The notes below the pieces were generated by a model. It was not told the DNA's origin. It saw only the letters and a program-made list of their open reading frames with translations, and searched no databases. Source: Gymnopus androsaceus JB14 (lineage: Eukaryota; Basidiomycota; Agaricomycetes; Agaricales; Omphalotaceae). From it: a stretch of 64,000 bases of DNA. Where the stretch lies: contig ML769387.1 in the NCBI GenBank assembly GCA_009733575.1, positions 660,636 through 724,635 of the forward strand, written 5' to 3'. The position numbers were made by a program, and so were the translations under genes. This document shows, in pieces, positions 4,688 to 62,034 of this stretch (position 1 is its first letter; each line of letters starts with the position of its first letter).

Positions 4688-6239
4688 ATGTTCTGCAAAG
4701 CTTCTCTCATTGCCTCCGTTACGCTCGCTATGCTTGCTGCAGCGTCTCCGCTGCAACAACAACGCCGTGGATCTATCGCTTTGCCGAAACGATCTTCACT
4801 CACCAAAGCCGACGGTACCTTTGACTACGAAAAGGCCGTCTTCCAGGGTGTGGCGACCAAGAACAAGCACCGACAGAATTTGTTAAACCTGCAGAATAAC
4901 ACTGGTAGCTTACCTGAGGTATCATAATTTTGCCTCTGGTCGATTCTTTTTGCTTACGGTACTCTTAGGGCATGGAGATCATGCCTCTTGCTTCGATTCC
5001 ATCTACCATCCAAGCACGTCTTAACAAGCGTCAGGCTGAACCTTTGACGGATGAAGATTCCAATACCGAGTGGGCAGGTAAGCAGTGTTCGTTGAACATT
5101 TCTAAGAATGCATCTGACTCTCCATAGGTACGATATCGATCGGCACCCCTGCACAAAAGTTCTTGATTGACTTTGACAGTAAGCGTCAGTTACCCTCACT
5201 TTCTTATCATCGCTTAAACGTTGCTCAGCGGGATCCAGCGATCTATGGATTCCTTCGTCGACTTGCACCAGCTCAACATGTAAAAAGAAGAGCACTTACA
5301 AATCGAGCTCATCATCTACTTCCGACAAGGAATCCGGTAGCTTCTCTATTGAGTACGGTGATGGTTCCACCGTCTCTGGTCCAGTTTACGAAAGACACCG
5401 TTACTGTCGCCGGTATCAAAGTCAAGAACCAAAAATTCTCCCCGGTTACTACCCTATCATCTAGCTTCGCCGACGATCCCGCCGATGGTATTCTCGGTCT
5501 CGCCTTCCCTGCCATCTCAAACCTGAATGCAAACCCATTTTTCGTCAACGCCGACTCACAGGGAGCCGTCTCTTCCAACGAATTTGGGTTCTACCTCGCT
5601 TCGGAGGGATCAGAGCTTTACCTCGGAGGTGCCAATTCGGACTTGTACTCTGGCTCAATCGAGTTCCACGATGTCGATACATCCACTGGATTCTGGCAGA
5701 TTACTGGTGCCAGCATTGCCTCTGGAAGTACCACCGCTGTCTCCGACTTTGAGACAATTATCGACTCTGGTACCACTATCATGTATGGTCCTACCGATGC
5801 CGTGAAGGAATTTTACGCCAAGGTTTCTGGTTCGAAGTTGTTCGACTCCAGCGAGGGCTACTACTCCTTCCCTTGTGACAATGTCCCCGAAGTCTCGTTC
5901 AGCTGGGGTGGAGAATCGTTCCAAGTAACGGCTGACAAGTAAGTGTTCTTTTCGTCTTCATCTTTGTAACATATTTAATTGCCTGCCTGTAGCTTCAATC
6001 TTGGAACCACCTCTTCAGGAGCCTCTACCTGTGTTGGCGCGCTCGCTGCTCAGGACCTTGGTCTCGGAACTAACACCTGGCTCCTCGGTGACAGGTTCGT
6101 ACATTCCGTTGTTCTCTTTCATGCGACCTTTATGGCTGATAAACATTAAACCCCTCTTTTTATCTACAGCTGGATGATGAACGTTTATACAGTCTTCAGC
6201 TTTGCTAAAACTGCCGTTGGATTCGCTAAGCTGTCATGA
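4688..6239 (+). pseudogene. Secreted pepsin-like aspartic protease (family A1), frameshifted
   Basis: Six exons: 4688-4918, 4969-5077, 5128-5178, 5229-5938, 5993-6094 and 6170-6239. It encodes a signal peptide (MFCKASLIASVTLAMLAAAS), a propeptide with a KR site just before QAEPLTDEDS, and a pepsin A1 domain with both catalytic motifs, DFDTGSSDLW (split by intron 3) and IIDSGTT. The flap region YGDGST is present. The family hydrolyses proteins extracellularly at acid pH. All splice phases agree only if exon 4 is one base shorter than it reads: between the flap (around 5375) and TVTVAGIKV (from about 5398) the frame shifts, with an apparent extra A in the run at 5391-5393. Without the extra base the length would be about 423 aa. 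Either a recent inactivating insertion or an assembly error; everything else looks functional. Confidence 0.85.
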
Positions 6240-7561: not shown

Positions 7562-8559
7562 ATGTGGTTCTTAACCTCGAGGACTGCTCTTCACTGGAAA
7601 ACCACAGACTCGGAGCGATCCGCAATAGCCTACGAGCCACTGGCTGCCAGTCAGGATTCTAGTTTAAAGGACGAATTCGCTGAGCTTCCTGTGCTGAACT
7701 TGAATAAACCTTCTTCTTACAAGCAGGCAGGGATCTCTAGCCTTATTTTCTTTGCCGGCATTATATTGGGACTCGTAGCTGCAAGAATCTTCAGGAGGAA
7801 TGCAATAGCTGCTACAACGAATCTCGAGCCAACATCATTAGTTTACTGTACGCATGTATTTTATTATCTAACGCAATAGTTGCACTGACGATTTCATAGC
7901 CCCTGCACAAAGCGCTTTGCGCTATCAAGTTCGCCGGTTCAACGCCTCGTTTGGAACTCATCTCACCGAGTACGAGGGAAAACCTTCGGAAGCACTTGAC
8001 AAGAAATGGCATGATTTGTACCGATGTATGTTTTATCCCATTTTTGACGCTATTATGCTAATTCTCTATGCCTTATACAATAGACGGTATCAGTCGAATT
8101 CCAGCGAGCGAGGCAGAGAAACTGGTCGATAAGACTGTACCGATCCCTGGAGATGAGGAGCACTACATCGTTAGCCTGGATGTTTTTCATCAACTTCACT
8201 GTTTGGTAAGAGCTCTTAACCGTGTATGCATCTTGCTACTAAGTACATCTGTCTCCTTGTAGAACCTCATTCGAAAGCAACTTTATCCCGACTACTACAC
8301 ACCACTGCCCACCGTTCACCTCGAGCACTGTGTTGACATTATTCGCCAGGCCATCTCATGCAATATTGATCTCACCCCAGTGCCTTGGATGTGGTCCGAG
8401 TCAGAGCAGGCGACGTTACCCGTAATGGACGGTTCACACCAGTGCGTCAACTTTGAGAATATCCAGAAATGGGCCTACGATCACCGAATGATCACGGAGT
8501 TTGACAATACGGTGAATTTGGAACTCCTGGGGCATCATGGAGGTACCGACTCGGAGTGA
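7562..8559 (+). CDS. UstYa-like oxidase (DUF3328), copy 1
   Basis: Predicted 276 aa from four exons: 7562-7847, 7900-8025, 8084-8205 and 8263-8559, with all phases consistent. The order is a short cytosolic N-terminus, one membrane segment (SSLIFFAGIILGLVAARIF, about residues 60-78), and a lumenal domain with two HxxHC motifs, HQLHC at the end of exon 3 and HLEHC in exon 4, followed by VDIIRQAISC. These motifs define the UstYa family, copper-type oxidases that cyclise or crosslink aromatic residues in ustiloxin, asperipin and related fungal RiPPs. The repeat precursor starts 489 bp downstream in the same orientation. A close paralogue with identical intron positions lies at 29775-30761. The family call is firm; the substrate is inferred from the neighbour. 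Confidence 0.92.
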
Positions 8560-8993
8560 TGTAGGTCACACAACTTTCAAGTTGTTGAGAAATTGGACGT
8601 TCCCACCCTGCCCCTTGTGCTAGCCCTTATGCTAGATCTATGAATTTACTCGCTTTCAATTCAACAACTTGCCTTTGATGCCAGCTTCCTGATGTTACAA
8701 TCTAGCTTGAAGTCCAAGCGCTCAGGGCAAGCTCGAGTGGTTGGACTCTAGTATCAATCTTGATGAAGCACCATACAGCACCATACTTTCTGATTGAGTT
8801 GCATGCTGGGAAAGGAGCGGGATATGTGGTTTCAGGACGCGGCGATCCGCTCTGTCGATACTGTGATTGAAGAGAATATGCGCGGTAAGATAAGATTCAA
8901 TCTTTTTTTCTTAAGTATTGATATGTATGTTCAAGTTTCAATTTCAACGCTTGCGCAAGGCGGCAAGGATTATTCAATACGATGAGTTACGGG

Positions 8994-9000
8994 TATAAAG
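8994..9000 (+). promoter_or_regulatory. TATA box of precursor gene 1
   Basis: TATAAAG lies 49 bp upstream of the precursor start codon at 9049, in the 489-bp gap between the oxidase and the precursor. This suggests the precursor has its own promoter rather than being read through from the oxidase. Confidence 0.4.
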
Positions 9001-9048
9001 GATGGAAGCTAGTGGTGGTGGAGTTCATTGGTTGCCCATTCAACAGCA

Positions 9049-9837
9049 ATGAAATTCAGCACCATACTCTCCATCCTTGCTTCTGGAACCATTGTAGCAG
9101 TTTACGCTGCACCGGTCAATGAAGAGGTTAGCTATTCTCTTTCCTCATTCAGCAGCAGTTCATCAATACCAGTGAATTATTCTCTCTTCAAGGCTCGGAC
9201 CATTCCTGAGCCTGACATTCTTTTCGGTGTAAAATACTCCACTCTGGATAAAAGGGAGGAGGCGAGTCATTTTGCTGATTCAGTATCTGTTCAACTCATA
9301 ATAAATTATTCACTCTCAAAGGCTCGCACCGTTCCTGAGCCCGATAATGTTTTCGCTGCAAAGTATACCACTCTTGACAAGAGGGAAGAGGCGAGTCATT
9401 TTCTTACAATGGTGTTTGCTCAACTCATATCCCGAATTATTCTCTATCAAAGGCCCGCACCGTTCCTGAGCCCGATGTTTTCAGTGCAAATTATACCACT
9501 CTTGACAAGAGGGAAGAGGCGAGTCATTTTCTTACAATGGTGTTTGCTCAACTCATATCACGAATTATTCTTTATCAAAGGCCCGCACCGTTCCTGAGCC
9601 TGATGATGTTTTTGGTGCAAAGTATACCACTCTTGACAAGAGGGAAGAGGCGAGTCGTTTTCTTACAATGGTGTTTGCTCAACTCATATTACGAATTATT
9701 CTCTATCAAAGGCCCGCGCCGTTCCTGAGCCCGATATTCTTTTCGGTGTAAAGTACTCCACTCTTGACAGGAGAGAGGAGGTGAGCCGTTTATTAACAAC
9801 ATTTCTTTTTTTTGACTTGGACTCACAGTGGTATTAG
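9049..9837 (+). CDS. Secreted repeat precursor peptide 1 (candidate UstYa-type RiPP precursor)
   Basis: Predicted 142 aa from seven exons: 9049-9126, 9193-9261, 9322-9390, 9453-9518, 9581-9649, 9712-9780 and 9829-9837. Exon 1 is a signal peptide ending AAPVNEE. Exons 2-6 each encode one repeat of 22-23 aa of the form A-R-T/A-I/V-PEPD-x-x-F-x-x-K-Y-S/T-TLDKREE; repeat 3 lacks one residue and has N for K before Y, and repeat 5 has RR for KR. The last exon adds WY and a stop. KR/RR are Kex2 sites, so processing would release about five similar peptides. Repeats 3-5 are in frame only if the 62-nt spacers are spliced out. Four of those spacers begin with GC. The adjacent UstYa oxidase fits a dikaritin-like pathway. 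An alternative is a Kex2-processed repeat protein that is not cyclised. Signal peptide and repeats are seen; product and function are inferred. Confidence 0.75.
9193..9780 (+). repeat. Five tandem exon-plus-intron units of precursor 1
   Basis: The array has a period of about 129-131 bp: a 66-69 bp coding repeat followed by a 60-62 bp intron. The coding repeats start at 9193, 9322, 9453, 9581 and 9712. The three spacers starting at 9391, 9519 and 9650 are almost identical, pointing to recent duplication of a whole exon-intron unit; the spacer at 9262 is more diverged. The final unit is followed by a different, GT-type intron. Confidence 0.85.
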
Positions 9838-12158: not shown

Positions 12159-14371
12159 ATGGCCGACACGTTCCCCACCTTGATAGCGACGTTTTTTGTA
12201 CTTGCGGTGCTCATCCTCTTCAGGAGAGCTTTTTCTGCTCCTAGGCTTAGCTTTCCTCCCGGTCCTCCCTCTAAACCATTGATTGGCAATATTATGCATG
12301 CACCTACATCGGGTGCAATTTGGGAAGTTTTCTCACAGTGGAAGGAAGTCTACGGTGAGTGTCACTGACTCTCCTCATGAGCCCTGTTTTTACCTCATGG
12401 TTTCCAGGTGACCTGGTCTTTCTCCATGGACTTGGGAACAATATACTTGTTGTGAACTCTTTGGAGACCACTAACGAGCTATTTGAAGGCCGTTGGAAGA
12501 CGTATTCGCATCGACCCCGTTTCACGGTTGTTGGGGAGCTCATGGGTACTGAAAAGGTGAAAATTCATGTCCTGGAATGCAATGTAATACTGAAGTATCT
12601 TTGATCTTTGTTGTATTTGGTGCAGTCTCCTGTGTTCATGCCCTATGGTGAGGAATGGAGAGAGAGCCGGAAGCTCATCAATATGGCGTTGAACCAGGGT
12701 GCAATTAAAAGGTACCATACAGTGCAGGAAGACATTGCTGCCTTGCTTAACAAGGACCTCCTTGAGAAACCGAATGATTTTATCAGTCATTTACGCTTGT
12801 ATGGGTCCTGTGTTTTATATTTAGTATTTATCTTGGCTAAGAAATTATTTAATAGGGCTGCCGGAAGGGTTGTTCTCTCTGTGACATATGGATTGTTTGC
12901 AGAGAACAGCCAAGATCAGGTAGGGTAAAGCCATTGCTACTAGAGCCTTTGTTAACCAATGTTGCAGTACATCAAAGATGCTGAAGAGGCTATGGATGTC
13001 ATTGGAAAAGGAATGGCACCTGGAACATTTCTCTGTGATTATTTCCCCATCAGTGAGTACTCAGTGTATTGATTTTCATATAAAGCTATCGCTAAACTAT
13101 CAAATGGACTATTCACAGTGAAGCACATACCAACTTGGATGCCTTTCCATTGGCGAAAGGAGGCAGAAAGGGGCCGGAAAGCAGTGAGACGCACAGTGGA
13201 GTTACCCTATTTTGCTGTCAAGAAGATGTTTTCAGAGAATTCTGCCCCACCTTCATTTACCATGGATCTTTTATCACTGGGTATAAATGATTTAAAATCT
13301 GAGGAGCAAGCAATGCTTGCAGCAAGTGCAATGTATGGTGGTAAGCTATATTTCTCTGCAGGGGAGTTTGAAAATGACATATTTTTATTCTCAGCTGGCA
13401 CGGAAACGGTCTGTATTTGGTCATGAAGTTCACAAGGTACAAGGCTAACCACTTTACTGATTAGACATTTGCCACAAGCTTGACATTTGTCTTAGCCATG
13501 GCAATGAACCAAGACATACAGAAGAAAGCACAGCTGGAGATTGACAGCATAATTGGAACAGATAGACTTCCCACTATTGCTGATGCACCACAACTTCCAT
13601 ATACAATGGCAGTTGTCAAGGAAACAATGAGGTGGCATCCTTCAGTTCCAATCTGTGGGTGGTCATCTGTCATTGACAGGCATGTTGGACTCATTGTACT
13701 TGTAGCTGTTCCGAGACAAACTTCAGAAGATGATGTCTTTAGGGGATATCATATTCCAAAGGTATGTGGATTTTTCATGTACCTTGTTGGTGACAATAAC
13801 TGAAGAGGCTGATTTTAAAATCTTGCATTAGAACACAATGGTCATCCCCAATGTTTGGTTAATAAAATTTCTCAAATACCTTGGAAATGCATTAATCAGT
13901 GTCTATCATAGGGCTATCTCACAAAACACCTCAAATCCGAACCAGTTTAATCCAGACAGGTTTCTCTATCAAAATGATTCTTTGAATATGATTGACCCCT
14001 CTAAATGGATATTTGGCATTGGAAGAAGGTGAGAGCCTGAAAGTCACTCAAACTTGTTGTGAAACTCTTTTAATTTGGGTCCAGGATCTGCCCAGGACGT
14101 TACCTTGCTGAGAATTCATTGATTGCAATTATTTGTGGTATTCTATCAGCCTTTGATATTCTACCACTGCAAAATGAGCCAATTCATCCGAAGTTCAGCC
14201 CAAAGCACATCAGGTATTCTTGTACAAATTCATAGACCCCACAATGCTGAGAGATGAAATTGTAGCTTTCCCGAAGTCTTTCCATGCCAAATACAACCTC
14301 GATCTTGTGGAAAAGTGGAATTAATACATAGTCGTTCTGCAGAGGCCAAGGTTCATTTACATGCAAAATAA
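12159..14371 (+). CDS. Cytochrome P450 monooxygenase
   Basis: Predicted 508 aa in 13 exons: 12159-12354, 12408-12556, 12626-12798, 12856-12919, 12968-13052, 13119-13340, 13395-13408, 13465-13654, 13706-13761, 13832-13857, 13912-14028, 14085-14213 and 14266-14371. It has an N-terminal membrane anchor (TLIATFFVLAVLILFRRAF), the hinge FPPGPPSKPLIGN, I-helix AGTETT, ExxR (ETMR) before WHPSVPI, FNPDRFL, and the heme loop FGIGRRICPGR split by an intron. The C-terminus FPCQIQPRS supports the last reading frame. The style matches Agaricomycete CYPs annotated as O-methylsterigmatocystin oxidoreductase-like. It would hydroxylate a lipophilic substrate at the ER with a P450 reductase. It lies 2.3 kb from precursor 1 and borders the transposon zone. 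Substrate unknown. Confidence 0.9.
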
Positions 14372-25627: not shown

Positions 25628-26835
25628 TTAAAAAGTGAATTGTTCGAACACCGAACTCCCTGTATAGGTCTCCTCATTTTCCCGGAATCCACCGCTAATA
25701 CTACCTGACCAACGCATATACGCCCCTTCTTCATTCAGCAGCACATGATCTCCTGAAGCAATAGCTTCAAACACCTTTCCGCCTCCCAAATCAATCGTGA
25801 TATTGAAGCCGTCGGGATCACTGCCCAGTCCTGGTGGGTACGTCGCATTGATGGGTCGTACTTGGACGGTGGATCCGCAGGTTGTTCCAAGGATTTTACC
25901 TTTCTCGGAGAGGTACCCGCTAGTGTATTCTGTACCGTTGGATGAAATACCGTCGAACCATACGAGTGAGTAGGGACCAACCCTCCCGTGGCCCCAATAC
26001 CAGCTCGTGACGGCGTGATCGAAAGCCACATCTCCCCAATTCTGACAACGCGAAGATGAGTAGGTGCTATGATTTATAGAAATAGACGAGTTGGCACCTT
26101 GTCGTGGTACCCAGATCCGGTAAAGCTCACACTGGTGCCGTTAATGTTGAGCTCTATGATGGTTTCCGCATCCGGAACGGCGTTAGCCCAGCCTACATGA
26201 GGAAAGAGCTCCATGTTTACACCTTCTTTAGCGGGTGAGCAAGGATAATGAGGAGGTGCAATCTGTACTAACAGTTAGAGTCGGGAAAAGGAAAGAATCC
26301 AAGAACGAACCGATGTCATGGATATAAATCCCGATATTCCAAGTTCCTCTGCAGCATCCGAGTCAAAGGTAACATTATAGCATGTCAGATCCCGCCCAAG
26401 AAATCGACTCCCAGTACCCTCCCAATCTCCTGTAATATCATTCCCATCCAAAGTCAATTTCCCTGCAGTTGCAGAGGGTGAATCAACAGCAAAAAACACA
26501 TCTTCTTCCGGAGTTTGCACGCGGATCTGTACTTCTAGAATATCTGTAGCGCTTTCCGCACCTATAAAACTAGTGCTTGGAGAAGCGTAGAAGACAGCGA
26601 CGATGGAATAGTTGGAATCAAGGGAAACTGCGTCGAAATACCACCAATCGTACGACGAGGAATTGATATTGGTTACTTTTGGTCCATCGAAAGATGAGTC
26701 GGAGATGAATTGTGCGACGCTAGTGGTGTTGGAAATGGTAGGAGGGATGGAAATGGATTTAAAGGAGCTTTGAGCGCAGGTAGCACATAGAAAGTTCGCC
26801 ACCAGGCTCAGGAGGGTGATAGAGGGCTTCTTCAT
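25628..26835 (-). CDS. Secreted AttH/CrtC-like protein (fungal Diels-Alderase-like)
   Basis: Predicted 367 aa from three exons, 26835-26311, 26262-26098 and 26041-25628, all joined in phase 0. A signal peptide (MKKPSITLLSLVANFLCATCAQ) is followed by the N-terminal sheet domain with SSYDWWYFDAVS and the C-terminal domain with NWGDVAFDHAVTSWYWGHG. These two W-rich motifs are characteristic of the AttH/hydroxyneurosporene-synthase-like family, which in fungi includes intramolecular Diels-Alderases of polyketide clusters but also many uncharacterised secreted proteins. Several N-x-S/T sites fit secretion. It lies between the two UstYa modules. Family membership is reasonably clear; a cyclase role is a guess from position. 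Confidence 0.75.
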
Positions 26836-29774
26836 GACAATGATGAGTGTTTCATCTGTCCTCAGCCTCTTATATAGGTTACGAGAGTCAAGACCGACGT
26901 CTGACTGGTTGACCTCCCACGCTCATATAAAGTGGAGACATGAAATTAGACTAGTACTAGAGATTTAGACTCGCGGGGCCAGTTCCGTTCGGTCGCCACC
27001 TATTTCAAATAAATTTGAAATGCGCTGTCAACAGCTGAGGTGGCTACCGAAGGACTGGGAACAAACCCGCGTCACTAACAGAGTCACAATTTCGTGACTT
27101 TAACTTAGTGAAATTTCGATTCAAGAAAAGCGAATTTTCATTGCGGAACTCTGTCCCCAGCTGTGACCCTTATAAAAATATCATGGCTAGACTTATAGTG
27201 TTGCATAAAGTTAGAATATCAGTATTATAGAGATATAAAATAGAAAATACGTGCATAAGATGAGATATTGCTCAAAATGACCCAAAAACATCAAAATCGG
27301 CGACGTCGATATAAGTTCTGGACAAGTGTCTCTCGGAGTAAATCCGGAAGATATTGAGGGTATTCTATAACCGAAATTAGCATCAAATCTCAGCGTTGGA
27401 GTGAGCAAAACAAAATATTGCTTCAGAAATCACCAAAAATCCAGGATGATGCAGTCGGAGCAGGTGCTGCTTGACTTAAATTGACCGTTCTATACTGCTA
27501 AAAGTTCGTGTAGGTCATAAAACGGCTTAAAGTGAGCCATAGTGACCTGTGCCCAGAATGCGAGGCAGTATTGTTCACTTGATCACTGAAAATTGCAGAT
27601 AGTGACATCAAGATGAGCGCCGTAGGCTTAAGATGAAGGGAATAGACTTACTAAAGTATAGAAATGTTATATCCAGGATTGAAACAATCCTTACATACCT
27701 TGACGTTGAATGGGAGTGAATATTGTGCTCTTCACCACCGAAAATCGCCAGTATTGGATTGGAAAGCACTCATTTACCTTGAATTTACCTGTAAGAACTT
27801 ACCATGATCATAGAAACCTTTTAGCCTACCTTGTTACAGTCGGGAGGAGCGGGGACAAGCCATTCACGCAGAGGTAGTGGTGGAGAGAAATCAAAATTTC
27901 GCTAAGTTCAACACATCAAAATGTGACTCGGTTCTTTATCGAGGTTTGGTACCAGCCGTTCTCCGAACTTGCTTCCGTAGGTCAGCAAGTATTTGTCATT
28001 TTGCAAATTCGGAGAACGGCGGGTTCACGAGCCTACTAGAGATTTAACAATTAGAGAGCGAAGGTCCGTGATCCCCGAGTCCGGTGCACGAAGCACGAAC
28101 GCTTTAATGCTCCAGCATTTCAAACCGGTGTAGCGGCCGGTTCCATCATGCTTATTGTTCAGACATGGTACATGGATGTAGGGGCTACACAGCGGAGGAG
28201 GCCAGACAACGTCAATCGCTCCATCGCCGTCGCGTCAAAAGACTGATTGATAGTACCAACATGATGATGATGATTCTGTATGTTCTAGGCTTGAAGCGAA
28301 TTGGATACCAGCTAGAAAGCCAACGATTGAAAACGTCGGGCTTTATTTAATTCCCCAGTGTTACGTTATATTGTGGAGGAGATTTACATTGCAAGAGGGA
28401 AGGGGGTTGGCAGTCGGGACTGTCAAGAGCCGTTTGGTCAGCCTTGAAAAGGTACTAGGCCGACGAACATGACACAGGCATGAAGTTGGAAGTGAGAATA
28501 TGGTGGAGAAATGAATGGAAACTCGAAGATTTAGATGATACAGTGAAGCATGTACTGAGTCGATAGACGCGACCTTGAGGTGAAAGAAAGGATAGTATTT
28601 GAGAATCGGGCTAAAAGAATGGAGCCTGAGCTTCTAGGTAATCGTAGAAAGCAACGGCTCAGATAGCGGGCGATGGCTAGTAAGACTTCAGATCAAGTCA
28701 GGACTCGGCGTACTATAGCTGTGCTCGTGATACAAGGCAGACTCACCGGCACACTGGCACCACTGGAAGATGCAGCGGAACATAGTCCTCCTCTTCATCT
28801 ACCGGACCCGGATCTCCTGGGTACGCAATGAGCGTGAGTGGATGCGCAGTGGACGCATGAATGTCGAATCCTCTTTGACCCTGTGTCTTGTTGATGCAGA
28901 TACCTCAAGAGCGCCATACTTTATGCGAGTACTAAAGCCTGTTTACTAAAGGATGTCACAGTCGAGGATTCAAGGTTTATGAATTGGCGCAGCGTACTGA
29001 CGACTCTTTAACTGTCTCCTAATCCCACACTCCACTTCCACGTTACCTCCATCGTCGGTTTCGTTTCTGTTCTCTTTAGTATATATCGTTCGCTCATTGG
29101 TTTATCCTGCTTTGTAGTTGCCTTGTCTTTGGATGTTTCGTTGTTGGATGTGTTGGAGGAGTTGAATCTCACGTGCTCGAGTTGCAGTTCTGGATAGAGC
29201 GAATTATTCGTTTTCTTTAAGTCTCCAAGTTCGCATGGGTTCCGAGCTCCGTTCACTTAGTTGGTTCATTGGAGGAGGGGTAGGCATAAGGGAGGATGCA
29301 GGAGAAGGTTTCTGTTTTGTTGGCGACCGGGTCAGTGGGAAGATGGGTTTGTTTATCGTTTGTTAGTTTTGCATTGCTAGAGATGGGTAGCTAGGTGACC
29401 TTGTGTTGACAAGATGAAATCGATGTTGTAAGGAGAAGGTTCAGGGCAGTGGGCGCTTGAACTCAAATAATTGGCGCCGCCAAATTCATGATCCAAGCCT
29501 GAACACAAATGTTGCTCTTACTCGAAGCGCGTAGTATCTATTCCTACCTGTATTCGTATTCAAAGTTTTCGAAATCATGATGCATCCAAATCGTGGTCAT
29601 CTTTGCAGTTGCACAACGACAACTTGAATGCAGGCAGCCCAATATCACTATCACTGTTGTCTACGAAATGTTATCGACACTTCGGAGGATTAAGTTATGA
29701 TAGAAACTTCCCATTTTTTCCTTCAAGACCGTTATCTCGTACGATTTTTCTATCTACGCCCCCCTCGTGCCACG
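26836..29774. other. Intergenic with hairpins
   Basis: No gene was supported over 2.9 kb. Two inverted repeats stand out. The first is near 26984-27055, where TTCGGTCGCCACCT pairs with AGGTGGCTACCGAA around the palindrome ATTTCAAATAAATTTGAAAT. The second is at 27955-28020, where GCCGTTCTCCGAA pairs with TTCGGAGAACGGC, with a small inner stem (CTTGCT/AGCAAG). Both look like small non-autonomous element remnants. Confidence 0.45.
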
Positions 29775-30761
29775 ATGTGGTTTTCGACCTCGAACTTTTC
29801 CACTTCTTTGCCCTCCCAAAGTACAGAACGATCTGCAATAGGTTACGAGCCACTCACTGCGAGCCAGGATTCTGAGCTTCGTCCGCTGAAAACGCCCTCT
29901 TACAAACGCGCGGTGATTTCTAGTCTCATTTTCTTCGCCGGTATCATCTCCGGACTCGTCATTGCAAGAGTCTCCGGGAGCAATGGAATAGTCAGTACAA
30001 GGAATCTTGACGCAACATCATTGGTGTACTGTGCGTGTATCTTTTGTTTTCCCTGTACTATTGTTTACTGACGCGAACACCGTTCAGCTCCTGCCCATAG
30101 CGCTTTGCGCTACCAAGTTCGCTGGTTTAACGCCTCATTTGGCACCCATCTTACCGAGTACGAAGGTCCACCTTCGGAAGCACTTGACGAGAAATGGCAT
30201 GATTTGTACCGATGTAGGCTTTCTCCTCTTTGCGATGCTATCAAAGCTAAATTTCGAATCTCATACTGTAGACGGTATCAGTCGAATTCCAGCCAGCGAG
30301 GCAGAAAAGCTGGTCGATAAGACTGTACCGATCCCTGAGGATGAGAAGCACTACATTATTAGCTTGGATGTCTTTCATCAACTTCACTGTTTGGTAGGAG
30401 ATTTTGATCGTGTTACGCATTCTGCTGCTACTAAGAACATACATACTTTTCCATGCAGAATCTCGTCCGAAAAGCACTCTATCCCGACTACTACCCGCCT
30501 TCCGAGCTCTCCCATCTCGAGCACTGTGTTGATATCATTCGCCAGGCCATCTCATGCACAATCGATCTCACTCCGATATCTTGGACGTGGTCCGAGCCAC
30601 AACGGGCAACGTTACCCAAGATGGACGGTGCTCATCAGTGCGTAGACTTTGAAAACATCCAGAAATGGGCCTACGATCACCGAATGGTCACGGAGTTTGA
30701 TGATAAAGTGAATCTGGAACTTCTGCATAACGGAGGAGATAGCAAGTCTTCAACACCATAA
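29775..30761 (+). CDS. UstYa-like oxidase (DUF3328), copy 2
   Basis: Predicted 268 aa from four exons: 29775-30030, 30088-30213, 30272-30393 and 30459-30761. Introns fall at exactly the same codons as in the copy at 7562-8559, and exons 2 and 3 have identical lengths. It keeps the single membrane segment (SSLIFFAGIISGLVIARV), FNASFGTHLTEYEG, HQLHC and HLEHC. It is therefore a full paralogue made by duplication, and the differences are mostly in the cytosolic tail. Precursor 2 begins 361 bp downstream in the same orientation. Function is as for copy 1: a membrane-bound oxidase expected to act on a secreted peptide in the secretory pathway. Confidence 0.92.
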
Positions 30762-31122
30762 ATTCCCCTTTGTAGATTAATGGCACAGTTTACTGAGAAG
30801 GGTTGGACGTTCCCGCTTTGATTGCATTCTAAGTATGTGTTTCTATCTAATGCGAGAGGTAACCAACATCATGATGTTGCAGAACATCTTATCTTCTTTT
30901 TCTTACTGTTTTCTTACTGTTTTCGTCGCGCAGAGCCCAAGGCTCACTTCAAGTGTATCAACCCGTCTTCGATTGCACTCTTGTGATGTGGTTGCCTGCG
31001 CTATCTACGTACCGTACAATCACAATCTGCGTTTGATTCGCTTGATAAATATAATACACTCAATTGCTTTAAAGGATGCCAGTGGAAGCTCTGGTATGTA
31101 GTTCGTCGATTCCCCAGCAGCA

Positions 31123-31631
31123 ATGAAAATCAACATATTCTCCTTACTAGCATTCGCAACCCTTGTAGCAGTGAGCGCTGCACCTGTCGAGGAGGTTAGC
31201 TGTTCTACTTCTTCATTAGGCAGGACTCCACTAACACCAGTGAATCATCCTCTCAAGGCTCGCACTGTTCCTGACCCCGATGCGAGCTTTAATGACAAGT
31301 ACGCAAAGAGGGTGGAGGTGGGTCGCCTTTTTTGTCTTCAGCGTTGTCTCCAATCACAGTGAATTGTTTTCCCTTCTAGATTCCCGACCCCGACGAGAGC
31401 TTCAATAACAAGTATGCGAAGAGGGTGGATCTATGTCGTTTTCTTTTTTCAGCGCCATCACACTGAATTGCTTTCCCTTCTAGATTCCCGACCCTGACGA
31501 GAGTTTCAATAACAAGTACGCGAAGAGGGTGGAGGTGAATCTTTTTTTCAGCGCTGGCTCGAATCACACTAAATTTCTCTCTGTTCTAGATTCCCGACCC
31601 CGACGAGAGTTTCAATAATAAGTATGCCTAG
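31123..31631 (+). CDS. Secreted repeat precursor peptide 2 (candidate UstYa-type RiPP precursor)
   Basis: Predicted 89 aa from five exons: 31123-31194, 31258-31317, 31380-31424, 31484-31534 and 31590-31631. Exon 1 is a signal peptide that ends AAPVEE, like precursor 1. Exon 2 encodes ARTVPDPDASFNDKYAKRVE; exons 3 and 4 encode IPDPDESFNNKYAKR-type units; the last exon stops after KYA without a dibasic site. Spacer 2 (31318-31379) contains an in-frame stop if retained, so splicing is required. Spacer 3 has lost the usual GAG/GT donor; using GTGGAT at 31425 restores frame. Kex2 cleavage would release three to four nearly identical peptides. The shared PDPD-x-x-F-x-x-KY motif links it to precursor 1. 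The oxidase partner lies directly upstream. Confidence 0.72.
31258..31631 (+). repeat. Four tandem exon-plus-intron units of precursor 2
   Basis: Coding units begin at 31258, 31380, 31484 and 31590 with spacers of 62, about 59 and 55 nt. Units 2-4 are nearly identical at DNA level and their spacers share the 3' end TTCTAG and a TTTTTTCAGCG block, so the exon-intron unit was duplicated as a whole. Confidence 0.8.
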
Positions 31632-32109: not shown

Positions 32110-33908
32110 ATGTCTTCTGTTTCTCATATTCTTCGCCGAAATGGTGTCCTTAATCTACCAAGAGCTTCCCCTGCGTCCAAAACGCTGACCGAAGCGCTTT
32201 TATGGAAGGACGCGCAACAAAATCACTGTTACTTCAAGCAGTCTGGGCTTCACAACCACCTCAGTCATCAGTGCGTGTCTTTGTAGCGCTCATTCCAAGG
32301 AATTTATCAATATATCTCCCTACTGGTAGCATCTTAGCGGCTTATGATTTGGGTGCATCTCCAGGCCTCCTTCAAAAGATCTACGACAATGAAGCCAGTT
32401 CTCAACGACCGATTGTACTGGAGGAAAAGGACAAAGATATCGCGATTGACGAGGACAGCTGGAGTCAGTATCTCGGCGACCAAAAGTAGGTTTTAGGGCT
32501 CCGGGGTCTTCGTTTGCTGACCGTGGCATCTCACTGCTACTTACAGTGCTTATAGCGCCTTCGTTACGTTCTTTGAGAGCCGTGTCAGTTCGTTTGGCGC
32601 AGTCAAAACTATAGAGGAGTTCATCTTCTCACCAGCTGCCAATGAGGAGGGAAAATGTATGCTCACGCGTCTCATGAGCGGAGCGTAAGTGAATCGTCTC
32701 TCGGAACATACACATCCTTACGTTTTATTCTAGTTTACATCCCTTTATTCTGCTGGGCGTAAGTGAATAGACAACCCCGTATCACCTCCGTGCTGACTGA
32801 ATGTAAAGTATGCTTTGGAGTTCGGAAACGATGCATTGGTCGCTACAGGTATCTCCTTGTCCAATCTTTACGGTGCTTTATTACAACTTTATATCTTCTA
32901 GGAATAGCCACAGCCTGCATCCACATTCCTGTCTCACCTGCCCTTTTCAAACCTGAATCCAAGACCGATTCCACCACTTATCCACCTGGCAGGTGGGTAA
33001 ATGGTGAAATTGGTCTATCTGTCCTCGAAATCCTTTCTCTCCTTCAGTCCTCTCCCGCTCTCAAACCTGTAATGCCTTACGACCCCAACGCACTCGTAAG
33101 TGCTCGCATCAAGTCGGCTCTACAAGATGGCAGGCAGGACGAGATTATTCACTTGTGCTCTCGGTTCCACGTCGACGAAACACTCAGAAAGGCCGGGATG
33201 ATGGCCAAGATTGAGGAACTCATCCGGGCTTCCGTTCTTCTTTTGTTCGCCACTGGAAAGGAGGGACGTAAACCCCGGTTGGATTTCTTCCTTATGCATC
33301 TAGTCACATCCTCGCTTTTCCTTAGGTCTTATATCAACGTGTTGGAAAACCCTGCTCACAAAGCGACAATCATCAAAGCATTCCTTCCAGGCGTGCTTCT
33401 TTTCTCACTTATTCGCGGTCGACCGACTATTAAACCCAATTTACTAATGGGAGCAACAGACAAGCCTCGTCCGCCTAACCAGTTTGAACCTCCTTATAAA
33501 CAAGGCCATGGTATAGGAAGTCCTTTGAATGATGAAGATTATAATCCTTGGCCAGCTCTGATTGAAACCTCCATTCATTTTTCCGACTCGCACGTTTTAA
33601 AGACAATGCGCACTTTGCTGCTGGCTGAAAGGGAATATGGAAATACAGAGACGGGGCGTGTTATTGGCATATTTAAGCAGTCAGAAGGTATGACCAATGC
33701 TAATGCTAATGCCAATGGCATGCCATTGTCGGAGGAGCAGGAGGAAACTTTTGAAGGGATCGCGAAACTGGATGGATCTATCTTCGTGAGGGCTGCTGGG
33801 ATGTTGATGGATTATATGGGATGGACGACGTACGGGCAGCCGGAGAGAGATGACTGGGATCGGAGTGCGCTTGGTTGGGATGATGCGTGGAATGATGAAG
33901 ATAATTAA
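32110..33908 (+). CDS. Questin oxidase-like protein (DUF4243)
   Basis: Predicted 508 aa from six exons: 32110-32270, 32330-32485, 32547-32684, 32734-32758, 32809-32848 and 32902-33908, with phases that all close. Motifs typical of the family are NHCYFKQSGLHNHLSHH near the N-terminus, LAAYDLGASPGLLQKIY, and LHPFILLGYALEFGND across two small exons. Questin oxidases perform Baeyer-Villiger-type ring cleavage of anthraquinones in fungal polyketide pathways; many basidiomycete homologues have no known substrate. A NANANAN low-complexity run lies near the C-terminus. It starts about 480 bp after precursor 2, in the same orientation, so it could belong to that module, but no ketide synthase is present in the window. 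Confidence 0.85.
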
Positions 33909-38608: not shown

Positions 38609-41600
38609 CTACTTACCATTAAAACCATCCAACCACCTAAATCGGGCTCTCCCCAGGAAGTCAGTGTGATACTCCCTATCAGCAGGTCTGAAATTTGAAC
38701 CAATAATAAAATCAGCCACCCTGGCCTGAGCTAAGCTACTCAGGTTGATGTCCTTTCCATTGAATACTGTTTCTTGGAAAGGATTTCCATCAAAAAGCTT
38801 GTCAAAAAGTTCCTGATCATTTCCATTAGCTTCATTGATCACAAGGAGTTGAGAAATAGCTTCATCTCCAATGTATTCCACTGCATGGGGACACAGTAGT
38901 CGGACAATGGATGCATTTCCATTGCAAGCTGCTGCATAAAGAGAATGTCCATATGCTCCTCCAAGAGCATTCACATCAGCTCCATGGGCCAATAGAAGCT
39001 GAATAATGGATTCATTTCCTTTTGCTGCTGCTGCTTGAAGAGCATTTCCATAATAGCCTCCCTGAGCATTCACATCAGCTCCATGGGTCAAAAGGAGCTG
39101 AACAATGGCTTCATCTCCATTGTATGCTGCAGCATAAAGGGCATTTCCATAACCTCCACTCTGAATATTCACATCAGCTCCATTGGTCAAAAGGAGTTGG
39201 ACAATAGCTTCATTTCCATTGCGGGCTGCTGCATAAAGAGCATTTCCATGTGCTTCTTGCTGAGCATTCACATCAGCTCCATAGATCAAAAGGAGCTGGA
39301 CAATGGCTTCATTTCCATTGCATACTGCTGCATAGAGAGCATCTCCAAAATCACCTCCCTGAGCATTCACATCAGCTCCATGGGTTAAAAGGAGCTGAGC
39401 AATGACTTCATTTCCACTAGAAACTGCTGCACAGAGAGCATTTCCATACATACCTCCCTGAGCATTCACATCAGCTTCATGGGTCAAAAGGAGCTGAGAA
39501 ATGGCTGCATGTCCATTGGAAACTGCTGCATAGAGAGCATTTTCATCTTCATCTTCCTGAATATTCACATCAGCTCCATGGGTCAAAAGGAGCTGGACAA
39601 TGCTTTCATTTCCACTGGAAACTGCTGCATAGAGAGCATTTCCACAACAACCTTCACGAGCATTCACATCAGCTCCATGGGTCAAAAGGAGCTGGACAAT
39701 GGCTTCATGACCATTATAAACTGCTGCATAGAGAGCATTTCCATAATCCCTTCCCTGAGCATTCACATCAGCTCCATGGGTCAAAAGAAGTTGGGTAATG
39801 GCTGAGTCTCCATTGGAAACTGCTTCATAGAGAGCATTTTGGTGTGCTCCTCCCTGAGCATCCACATCGGCTCCATGAGTCAAAAGAAGCTGAACAATGG
39901 CTTCATCTCTATTGGATACTGCTGTATAGAGAGAATCTTGGTATGCTGCTCCCTGAGCATTCACATGAGCTCCATGGGTCAAAAGGAGATTGACAATGGC
40001 TTCATTTTGATTGGATACTGATGCATAGAGAGTATTTCCATATTTTCCGTGCTGAGCATTGACATCAGCTCCATGGGCTAAAAGAAGCTGAGCAATGGTT
40101 TCATTTCCATTGGAAGCTGCTGCATAGAGAGCATTTCCATATTTACCTCCCTGAGCATTCACGTCAGCTCCTTTGGCCAAAAGGAGCTGGACAATGACTT
40201 CATTACCTTGAGTAGCTGCTGCTTGGAGGGCATTTCCATATGCTCCTCCCTTTGCATTGATGTCACATTCACCACTCAGAATCAGGTTATGGACACTCCT
40301 TTCCAAGCCACCAAGAGCAGCACAATACAGTGGGTTGGGCATCTCCTCCCAATATTTTAGATGATATATCTTTGCCCAGGTTTGAAATGGTACACTTCTG
40401 TTTTGTAGAAAATCTGTGGTTAAGTCATCTAGGTCCCTGTTGGGACCTGATTCTTGCACTGATTTTGTGTGAGCTTGCCAATATTTTGCCGCATAATCAT
40501 ATGTTTGTGATATAGAAGACGTGGAATTGGTGAACACATCAGTTGATTTCAAGAGATATAAGATGCATGCCTTGGCCAATGAGGCATGAGCTAGCTGTGC
40601 ATTGATTTGAAAGAGACCCATTGTTTGATCAGAATTTAAATTGGTAATCAGAAATTCTTTCACAGACGTGTGTGCCAACTGAACAATACTATTTGTGTCA
40701 ACAGTCACAAGGTTGGAATCAATAATGAGCTCTACTTTCAGACTCATATTATCACTTGGGTATAGTTCTTGCTCTGTCATGTTGATAGCAAGAAAATCTG
40801 CAACTTGCTTTTTGTATAATGGTCTAAAAGCAAATGTAAGCCACATCAGAAGACAATGGGCATCTGTTGCATGTACACTTTGCTTGGCATTTTGTATGGC
40901 TTTCATATATGTTTCCTGCAAATCACTGGGTAGCTTCTGCAATGAGTGAATAACTGCACTCTGGGTTCCACATTGAATTAATGTTCTGACTTGACAATCT
41001 ACCCAGCGGAATCTAATAATTATCAACATAAGTACATACTTTGTAGTGTCATTGAGATACTCACTGCCACTGAGCCTTAGCCATCAATGTATTCAACACC
41101 TTAGCTTTCAATTCACCTCTGAAATGGAGCTGCATTTGATCTTCCAAATAGAGAGAAATATCTCCTTCAATTCCAGAATTTCTGCTGTCCAATGCAATTA
41201 TCAATTTAACATTGGCTGCTTGGCCCTCTGGTGAATATCGGCTTGTAACAGCAGTTTGTATTTTTTCAGCAATGTTTACCACCCACTTTGTAACATAGGC
41301 TCTTTCCTGTAAGCTGCATTCATCCAAGGCATCTAGCACAATATATCCTGAAGTACTAGATTGTTGAATGATTCTATTCAGGGTATTTTCCAACTGCAAA
41401 TTGCTAGGTTGGCCAACTTGATAACCTCTGTTGCACTGGCTATACAGCTCTTGCAATGCTGGATGAATTCCTTGCACATTAACACCCATCTGTTGCAGCA
41501 TATTTAACAAAAGTCCTCGGTAGCCACATTTATCTCCTGTGTTATCACGAAAATCAAAATAGTGATAACAAACAGTGTGTGAGGTGTCATATAAGTGATC

Positions 41601-42222
41601 TATGATTGTTGTTCTAGAAATTCATTTACTTTCACCAATTTCTTGTAGAGTATCATGATTGCACTTACGACATAACTGTTTTACCTGATCCTGCTGGAGT
41701 TTTTTTTTAAATTTATCATTTTCACACATCCATACTAATTAGGTCAACTCACCTTTTCCTTGAATCCACAGCAGTCCACCATTATTGTTCCATTCAATGT
41801 ATTTTGGATGTTTAAAAATCCATACTCCAGTTCCTGCAGTTTTCTTGTTAGTAGCTGTGTTAAAAATGGTGGAGCAATCTGGTGCTTTAAGCCATTCATT
41901 GATTTTTTGTACTTGATCATGTACTGTGTTGAATCACAGTCAAGCTACAAACTGAAAATACAACCTGGAAAATAGCTCACATTGAATAGTAACATTTGCT
42001 GAATCATTTGCAACAATGAAGTTCCCACCATTTATCCTGAAGTTGGAAGAATTTTCAAACAAACTTTAAACAAGTAAATATTGACGAAGTCACCCCTGTC
42101 AAGAAAGAGTATCCTACCGGGTGTCTCCTTGTTTATGTCTACGAAGGTCAAAAAAAATCAGTACAGGTGGCATACTAAAAACGCCTGACTTACTGGATAC
42201 TTGGACCAAAATATTCACTCAT
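38609..42222 (-). CDS. NACHT-ankyrin NLR (STAND NTPase)
   Basis: About 1,080 aa in seven exons, starting MSEYFGPSIQ at 42222. The order is a short N-terminal segment with INGGNFIVANDSANVTI, then KINEWLKAPDCS, the P-loop GKGSGKT (split by an intron near 41700), YHYFDFRD, Walker B YIVLDALDECS, the sensor region AVTSRYSP, a winged-helix-like region (FRWVDCQVRTLIQ, LPSDLQETY), and then about 14-15 ankyrin repeats of 33 aa (GNALYAAxxNGNEAIVQLLLTHGADVNAQ type). The final repeats degrade before the end. Fungal NLRs act in non-self recognition and regulated cell death. All visible splice phases close, so it appears intact. The ankyrin block is covered by highly similar 99-bp DNA repeats. Confidence 0.88.
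38820..40290 (-). repeat. 99-bp tandem repeats encoding ankyrin units
   Basis: Around 14 head-to-tail 99-bp units, each reading CATCAGCTCCATGGGTCAAA-like on the plus strand, with very high mutual identity. Differences cluster at a few codons (for example the two positions before GN and the residues after NAQ), as expected for repeats kept uniform by recombination while binding positions vary. Confidence 0.85.
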
Positions 42223-60487: not shown

Positions 60488-62034
60488 CTATAGGAGTTTA
60501 GTATAGTGCGAAGGACGGGAAGGAGAGGACACACTTAGATCCATAGGATGACCAGTTGAGAGCTGGGGTGACTGGGCGTAGTGCTCTTTCTTCAGCTGCA
60601 AATGACAACATGAACTCTCTTCGGTGATTATATGTATCAAGTTACACACTTTGGCGCGAACTGGAGGAGAAAGGATACCGTTAGATCGTCGTCTCAAATT
60701 ATGAGACAAATACACTCACTTCCATCCAAGAGCTCGAGGTACGTAGGCTCCGGATTTTCCTCTACTCGATGGACGCAAATAAGTATTATGTAGCGTCAGA
60801 AATTACGACGAGGAACGCACGTAGAGTGGTCAAGAGTCCCCAACTCAGAGCTCCGGTGGACATGCCGTTTTCAGTCGCATCCGCTGACGACTGTGTGTCT
60901 TTGCATCCAGAGATCAATACCTTGGTATTGCAGATAGCGATTAACGAATCGTACAATAAGTAAAAGTAAATACGCACTACATCCGCCAAGCTCTCATTTC
61001 GCTTCTTCATCGCTTCTACCTGCTTCACGTGCGCCTTAAGACCATCCAATCTCTCAATATCCATCAATGCTCCTTTACCGTCCCTCTCCACGAATAGCTT
61101 TCCCCCAGTTTCATGTAAAATGTCCTTTGTAGCTTCCAACATGTCCTTCACCTCGAAAAATTTCTCCCTGACCTTCCACACCTCTGTCTCCTCCAATGCT
61201 ACAAAACCTCGTGCTTTCCGCGTTATATGTGCCTCTTCAGCATCCTCCTCCGCAAGAAGATTTCCCCCTTTCAATTTTCCCGATTTTGCAGCGTACACAA
61301 ACGGAAGGACCAATACAGAGCCCGAGTGACATGAATCAAAGATTGCAGTAAGACGTGCACCTGCAGGAAGCGGAGAAACCAGGTGTTGATGTAGCTCGTC
61401 GTCAAGGATAATACTCTGATAACAGGCGTTTATCTGCTCATGGGAGGCATGAGTGAGCGGTACAGAATCGAGAGGATAGATGCAGTCGTCGTAATAGTCC
61501 ATTTTATCACCATCTTGATCTGGTCGCCGGCCACCATGTCCCGAATAGTGAAAGAACAGCGAATCGTGAGCTTGAGCATCTTTTACAAGCCAATGCGTCC
61601 AGTGAAGCTGTAAATATGACAGAATGAGAGTTCGAAAAGGGAAATAAAAGATAAACGCACAATGTTGGCTCTGGTAGGCTGGTATTCAGGCTTGAGCCTG
61701 TGGTCGTCCATCAAAAGTACAACGTTTTCGGCTTTAAAACCGTACGTTTTGGTGATAAATTTGTACATTCGCGACGCATCTGAATGGCATCCATCTAGTG
61801 GGTCTAACAACCAAAGAATTAAAGCAAAGAGAGCCTCGTAGTAACAAAAATCAACTCACTGTTGGTTCCCCGATAATTAATTCCAATCAAAAGCGCCTTC
61901 TTGTTTCCAGTGCAATTCGAGCTGACCCATTCCGTACGGGTCGTTACTTTTGTTTCGTATGTCTTTTCTACAGTGAGAAAAGGCTTCTCTGCTTCTACTG
62001 GGACCTCTTTAGAATGGCCAAGGTGGAAGTGCAT
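60488..62034 (-). CDS. Metacaspase (clan CD cysteine peptidase)
   Basis: A multi-exon gene whose first good ATG is at 62034 (MHFHLGHSKE); an upstream frame to 62236 is an alternative start. It carries NKKALLIGINYRGT, LDGCHSDASRMYKFITKTYGF, the catalytic His motif HYSGHGG and the catalytic Cys motif FDSCHSGS, then an extended basic/acidic insertion (KARGFVALEETE... DGLKAHVKQVEAM), ISGCKDTQSSADA, and the C-terminal GALSWGLLTTL and YAQSPQLSTGHPMDL. Metacaspases cleave after Arg or Lys and act in stress responses and protein quality control. The long Q/N-rich prodomain of yeast-type metacaspases is lacking, which is common in mushroom paralogues. The exact last exon is less sure. Confidence 0.87.

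Follow-up and report, generated by a model that had tools for sequence, protein, structure and literature searches.

Dikaritins (ustiloxin, phomopsin, asperipin-2a, victorin) arise from a secreted precursor with Kex2-separated repeats, encoded beside a UstYa protein that carries two HxxHC motifs. The producers named in the portion of PMC12048977 consulted are ascomycetes (this and the other papers below are cited from parts of their text). A first-pass annotation of a 64,000-nucleotide stretch of the genome of the litter-decaying mushroom Gymnopus androsaceus JB14 (hereafter, the window; C5:660636–724635) proposed a locus of this type in a basidiomycete, raising the question of whether such a pair of genes could make a crosslinked peptide here. 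We found this to be the best reading of the locus (locus A) – based on the oxidase family and its motifs, an in silico precursor architecture, and four further pairs with an F-x-x-x-Y core. Specifically, we give a probability of roughly 60% to locus A being a dikaritin-type cassette of two genes for a ribosomal peptide, in which Kex2 and a Ste13-type peptidase process the precursor and UstYa forms a Phe-Tyr macrocycle.

The oxidase and predicted precursor of locus A

The locus A oxidase gene (7562–8559, forward strand) encodes 276 amino acids in four exons that join in frame (7562–7847, 7900–8025, 8084–8205, and 8263–8559). Consistent with its initial identification as a UstYa/DUF3328 protein with both HxxHC motifs, the product matches PF11807 in Pfam (E = 3.9e-52) and contains HQLHC and HLEHC. 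The two histidines and the cysteine of each motif are invariant in a 25-row alignment. A UstYa with two HxxHC motifs is the proposed class-defining enzyme of dikaritins (PMC12048977), and locus A encodes one. A single N-terminal hydrophobic stretch, recognized by eye, could be a membrane anchor. The public G. androsaceus JB14 protein P0002 is 99% identical to the locus A oxidase across 66% of it. The public gene models of the locus A and locus B oxidases, P0002 and P0003 (locus B is described below), are both marked partial and begin at exon 2.

The predicted precursor gene (9049–9837) begins ~490 bp downstream of the oxidase stop codon on the same strand and comprises seven exons (9049–9126, 9193–9261, 9322–9390, 9453–9518, 9581–9649, 9712–9780, and 9829–9837) that encode 142 amino acids: a secretion signal, five units, and a C-terminal WY. 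Spliced in silico with every exon border in phase 0, it reads MKFSTILSILASGTIVAVYAAPVNEE, then the five units, then WY and a stop. Exon 1 (9049–9126) encodes the predicted signal peptide, MKFSTILSILASGTIVAVYA-APVNEE, with the signal judged by eye, and a similar exon is present in the precursors of loci B, C, and E. The units are ARTIPEPDILFGVKYSTLDKREE (unit 1, 9193–9261), ARTVPEPDNVFAAKYTTLDKREE (unit 2, 9322–9390), ARTVPEPDVFSANYTTLDKREE (unit 3, 9453–9518, shorter by one codon), ARTVPEPDDVFGAKYTTLDKREE (unit 4, 9581–9649), and ARAVPEPDILFGVKYSTLDRREE (unit 5, 9712–9780). These are near-identical stretches of 22–23 residues, four of which end in KR and one in RR. The final WY exon has a counterpart in the locus C paralogue, where TGG TAT and a stop codon come after a similar intron end. 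The seven in silico exons give the product proposed to neighbor the oxidase – a signal-peptide protein with five KR/RR-ending repeats – with the signal again assigned by eye. Read without splicing, the frame holds through the first two units only. In silico, the gene combines the ER signal (by eye) and repeated cores at Kex2 sites of a dikaritin precursor with the near-identical KR/RR repeats of a KEX2-processed repeat protein (KEP).

The initial annotation also anticipated that gene finders would miss this precursor. In agreement, a profile built from three precursors (an A/B/E alignment) and searched against 4370 candidate proteins at E <= 10 recovered a single public model, P0043, which by sequence match is the public gene model of the decayed locus C. 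Precursor A alone had no match at E <= 1 among 448 candidate proteins. The protein search with the three-precursor profile returned no Lentinula precursor and none from any other genus, which may reflect absence, divergence, or missing gene models. Two similarities of precursor A were set aside: a Pfam match to YoaP (20.8 bits, under the family cut-off of 25) was taken as chance, and five weak matches to solved structures, all of eIF3 subunit C (E >= 0.72), were not considered meaningful.

Introns 1 and 6 of precursor A start with GT. The other four of the six (introns 2–5; 9262–9321, 9391–9452, 9519–9580, and 9650–9711, spanning 9262–9711 on the forward strand) start with a GCGAGT donor and, as judged from sequence, appear to be GC-AG introns. 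In-frame GT sites (GTATCT, GTGTTT) lie 21 nt inside the GC introns, and their use would leave introns of 39–41 nt. Because of these GT sites at +21, we dropped the proposal that GC donors are strictly needed for splicing; the core stays in frame with either donor choice. In the GC introns the donor falls two codons past the dibasic site; B units 1 and 3 and C unit 2 have their GT donors at this position too. Since this donor position is common to A, B, and C, we read introns 2–5 as GC-AG introns spread by exon duplication. Introns 3–5 are each 62 nt long with pairwise differences at 2–3 positions, and units 2–4 differ at 4–5 nt – a number of changes too small to support a claim of diversifying selection on the cores. 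The layout of one unit per exon with phase-0 borders would allow units to be gained or lost by duplication of an exon together with its intron. The four GC-AG introns may also explain why the locus A precursor is unannotated.

Paralogous oxidase-precursor pairs

A profile search of the 83-Mb genome (934 contigs) gave 51 UstYa matches, with each exon counted separately. Five loci (A–E) pair a UstYa of the same clade with a related precursor located downstream on the same strand, at oxidase-to-precursor distances of about 490, 360, 1040, 1500, and 610 bp for A, B, C, D, and E, respectively. In the tree, the oxidases of A, B, D, and E fall into a single clade (support 94/91) beside five Lentinula proteins; locus C, being truncated, was omitted. 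All five pairs come from the same genome as paralogues, and conservation of this sort is weaker than conservation across species.

Locus B (29775–31631, forward strand) is an intact pair within the same window that was absent from the first-pass annotation and was detected by a repeat scan. Its UstYa gene (29775–30761) has exons at 29775–30030, 30088–30213, 30272–30393, and 30459–30761. Its precursor gene (31123–31631; exons 31123–31194, 31258–31317, 31380–31424, 31484–31534, and 31590–31631) encodes 89 amino acids with four units of the form PDPD[AE]SFN[ND]KYA, one per exon.

Searches with precursor A detected loci C and D. Locus C is a decayed pair ~7 kb left of the window on the reverse strand (L037, C5:648001–658000, at about 5560–3270). 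Its oxidase is without the HQLHC region, a stop interrupts unit 1 of its precursor, and a frameshift interrupts unit 3. A lone extra unit nearby (L037 2735–2660) has a GCGAGT donor. The locus D oxidase matches P0001 over its length, and the decayed precursor (L052 2008–2064 and L044 about 1900–2400) has a shifted signal-peptide frame, EER instead of KR, and an insertion in unit 3. This insertion is rich in GTTAAAC-like words, and a stray UstYa fragment lies ahead of the precursor.

Locus E (L053) emerged from inspection of the sequence that follows the clade’s fifth oxidase and was not among the matches of genome searches with precursor A or B at E <= 10. Its precursor consists of a signal peptide and one unit, VADPDTVGFIFEYLAADRRN, with a stop soon after; the signal exon and unit align with those of A and B. 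Weak genome matches (E 0.03–0.3) were also observed on contigs C26, C12, and C22.

The visible decay of C and D and a broken second unit at E raise the possibility of a relic, in which the repeats would be a tandem duplication in decay that makes no functional product and lies near a UstYa gene by chance, and GC donors could likewise mark erosion. We regard this as very improbable. Loci A and B are intact across all of their units, and the Phe and Tyr codons of the 17 units that carry both residues vary only synonymously (TTC and TTT are mixed for Phe, TAC and TAT for Tyr). Moreover, the UstYa genes of A and B have a dN/dS of 0.26 (dN 0.167, dS 0.650), which implies that at least one of the two has been constrained since their split.

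Across the pairs, we saw only the oxidase and precursor recur. AsqO/Diels-Alderase-like (25631–26922, reverse strand) and questin-oxidase-like (about 32154–33905, forward strand) genes flank locus B and are possibly tailoring enzymes or unrelated neighbors. Neither family was found near A, C, D, or E among the best candidates scored, and these genes are thus not counted as cluster members. P450-like pieces (12605–13800, forward strand) lie ~3 kb downstream of precursor A, with a PF00067 match on 13465–13800 only. A Copia-type gag fragment (PF14223; 14943–15500, forward strand) lies between loci A and B, and NACHT-type (NPHP3_N) and ankyrin-repeat exons (38612–41621, reverse strand) likely belong to an NLR-like gene.

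Genome matches to tyrosinase, which is part of Ding’s original dikaritin list, were confined to contig C71, away from the five loci. Among the 30 window ORFs scanned, which represent part of the window’s exons, no methyltransferase or transporter from that list was matched. The same ORFs included peptidase matches to an aspartyl protease (5118–5939) and a caspase-type peptidase (60789–61685), neither of which is a known cluster member. Functional dikaritin clusters without some of the listed enzymes have been reported (PMC12048977), and the four asperipin-2a genes listed in PMC6514808 include no tyrosinase. Like locus A, the asperipin-2a cluster has a single UstYa homologue.

The F-x-x-x-Y core and its predicted processing

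We identified 18 units at the five loci (five at A, four at B, three plus the lone unit at C, three at D, and two at E), selected on the leader (P-[DE]-P-D or variants of it) with neither Phe nor Tyr required. Phe at position 0 and Tyr at +4 are present in 17 of the 18. The exception, E unit 2, lies out of frame behind the stop of E and keeps the Phe, with a stop ahead of any Tyr. Positions −2, −1, +1, +2, and +3 each accept several residues among the 17 units. The Phe and Tyr originally noted in each repeat thus hold for all five locus A units and extend to the paralogues. The lysine of the F-x-x-K-Y motif proposed alongside them does not hold throughout: unit 3 has Asn, giving F-x-x-[K/N]-Y.

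Across all six frames, the window contains nine copies of the motif P[DE]PD-x(1,3)-F-x3-Y (five at A, four at B), whereas 20 sequences simulated with the window’s dinucleotide frequencies averaged 0.0. The looser F-x3-Y-x(1,5)-[KR]R occurs 12 times, versus 1–8 in the same simulations. At 24 of 24 three-kb control loci around other UstYa genes, PxPD-x(1,3)-F-x3-Y was absent; these loci extend 1.5 kb to each side, include some genes twice, and leave 21 of the 51 UstYa matches outside the set, so that precursors lying farther out or outside the listed loci would escape. The looser motif was seen once or twice at eight of the 24, indicating that F-x3-Y alone is not rare. In a lenient KR-repeat scan of 31 loci, core-bearing repeats were found at A, B, and C only, with other repeat pairs off-frame or core-less. 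One region of contig C64 (19841–25358, reverse strand) has several UstYa matches within ~5.5 kb and no Kex2-type repeats in the flanks examined.

We propose the following route for the locus A product, presuming that the precursor is spliced and its product secreted as predicted. The signal peptide would take the precursor into the ER, and in the Golgi Kex2 would cut after KR or RR and Kex1 would strip the basic residues, as both enzymes do for dikaritin and KEP precursors (PMC9769878). A Ste13-type dipeptidyl aminopeptidase would then probably trim the paired X-P dipeptides (VP-EP or IP-DP). Kexin P-domain matches are present on two contigs (C5 and C19) and a DPPIV-type gene on C27, suggesting that general processing enzymes are available. 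The X-P dipeptides of B unit 3 directly follow a Kex2 site (KR-IPDPD). In precursor A, EEART separates KR from VPEP, so that Ste13-type trimming of the X-P pairs would need another cut.

The trimmed cores would be roughly 9–12 residues long, start with Asp, and contain F-x-x-x-Y, as in DNVFAAKYTTLD. The neighboring UstYa would close a small macrocycle by forming an oxidative bond between the side chains of Phe and Tyr, with 2 H removed. For the predicted A cores, computed [M+H]+ values in the linear and −2H forms are 1370.720 and 1368.705 (DILFGVKYSTLD), 1357.663 and 1355.648 (DNVFAAKYTTLD), 1245.563 and 1243.548 (DVFSANYTTLD), and 1344.632 and 1342.616 (DDVFGAKYTTLD). The corresponding values for the predicted B core DESFNNKYA are 1087.469 and 1085.453.

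DUF3328 proteins are needed for the cyclization of ustiloxin, phomopsin, and asperipin-2a (PMC7329392; PMC6514808). The bonds of known dikaritins include Tyr-Ile (ustiloxin, phomopsin) and Phe-Leu (victorin) and are thus not confined to aromatic pairs (PMC9233826). These precedents would fit a UstYa that forms another bond (Tyr to Lys or Leu, for example) or hydroxylates Phe or Tyr, with F-x-x-x-Y acting only as a recognition motif. We consider this alternative unlikely, as only Phe and Tyr are invariant from −2 to +5 in the 17 units. A conserved pair at fixed spacing nevertheless fits a crosslinking enzyme and a recognition motif alike, and our confidence in the Phe-Tyr macrocycle reading is moderate for this reason.

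Relation to known fungal repeat peptides

A different challenge comes from basidiomycete KEPs, in which Le Marquer 2019 described STE13 signatures (PMC6339444). The alpha-pheromone-like KEPs with these signatures resemble locus A in having paired X-P dipeptides before the core and KR after it. They differ in that the peptides detected so far are linear, whereas locus A has a UstYa partner and EEART ahead of its X-P pair. Precursor A could accordingly be a Kex2-processed, pheromone-like repeat protein that releases linear signal or fiber peptides, with UstYa having a different activity, such as hydroxylation, or acting on another substrate. Linear KEP peptides have been detected in Pleurotus, from precursors with STE13 motifs, and the KEP peptides found in four agaricomycetes were either linear or changed only minimally (PMC9769878), which counts against a macrocycle. 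In addition, DUF3328 proteins also hydroxylate and chlorinate in the cyclochlorotine pathway (PMC12048977). Five same-clade pairs and the presence of Phe and Tyr in nearly every unit fit an enzyme and its substrate, however, and we doubt the linear-peptide explanation. We continue to favor a dikaritin-type cassette. Its differences from characterized dikaritins are the F-x-x-x-Y inside 9–12 residues, the unit-per-exon layout, the lack of a tyrosinase match nearby, and the basidiomycete host.

The general kind of locus to which A belongs is already known, since DUF3328-adjoining basidiomycete KEPs have been published. In Umemura 2020, 103 of 1,680 basidiomycete KEPs had DUF3328 genes nearby, and the study suggested that the basidiomycete motif differs or that cyclization may scarcely take place there; among 76 homologues of pheromone-like KEPs from basidiomycetes, 17 had a DUF3328 neighbor (PMC7329392). 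These KEPs share with locus A the gene pairing and the phylum, but our search of the protein collection did not find precursor A. The words ‘intron’ and ‘exon’ are absent from the main text of PMC7329392 as consulted. In the literature passages searched, we found neither the F-x-x-x-Y family nor the one-unit-per-exon layout. For Pleurotus, an eLife study mentions 16 UstYa-like genes, six of which show developmental expression (PMC8893723).

Loci A–E make up a family of an already known kind, small and expanding. With two intact pairs and predicted masses, the family provides a direct test case for the cyclization of basidiomycete repeat proteins, and comparison of its five paralogues names two residues, Phe and Tyr, to look at. 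Because cores lie on separate exons of 42–69 nt, some with GC donors, and are hard for gene models to capture, current counts of such precursors in mushrooms may be too low. As to biological role, a defensive or signaling peptide is our guess.

More tentatively, and at somewhat less than even odds, these loci may represent a basidiomycete class of UstYa macrocycles with a Phe(i)-Tyr(i+4) bridge and one core per exon, in which exon-intron cassettes duplicate and the oxidase enforces only the bridged residues. If so, the peptide library of this lineage would evolve by duplication of exon-intron cassettes (here with GC-AG introns), and dedicated oxidase-precursor pairs would multiply and die inside one genome.
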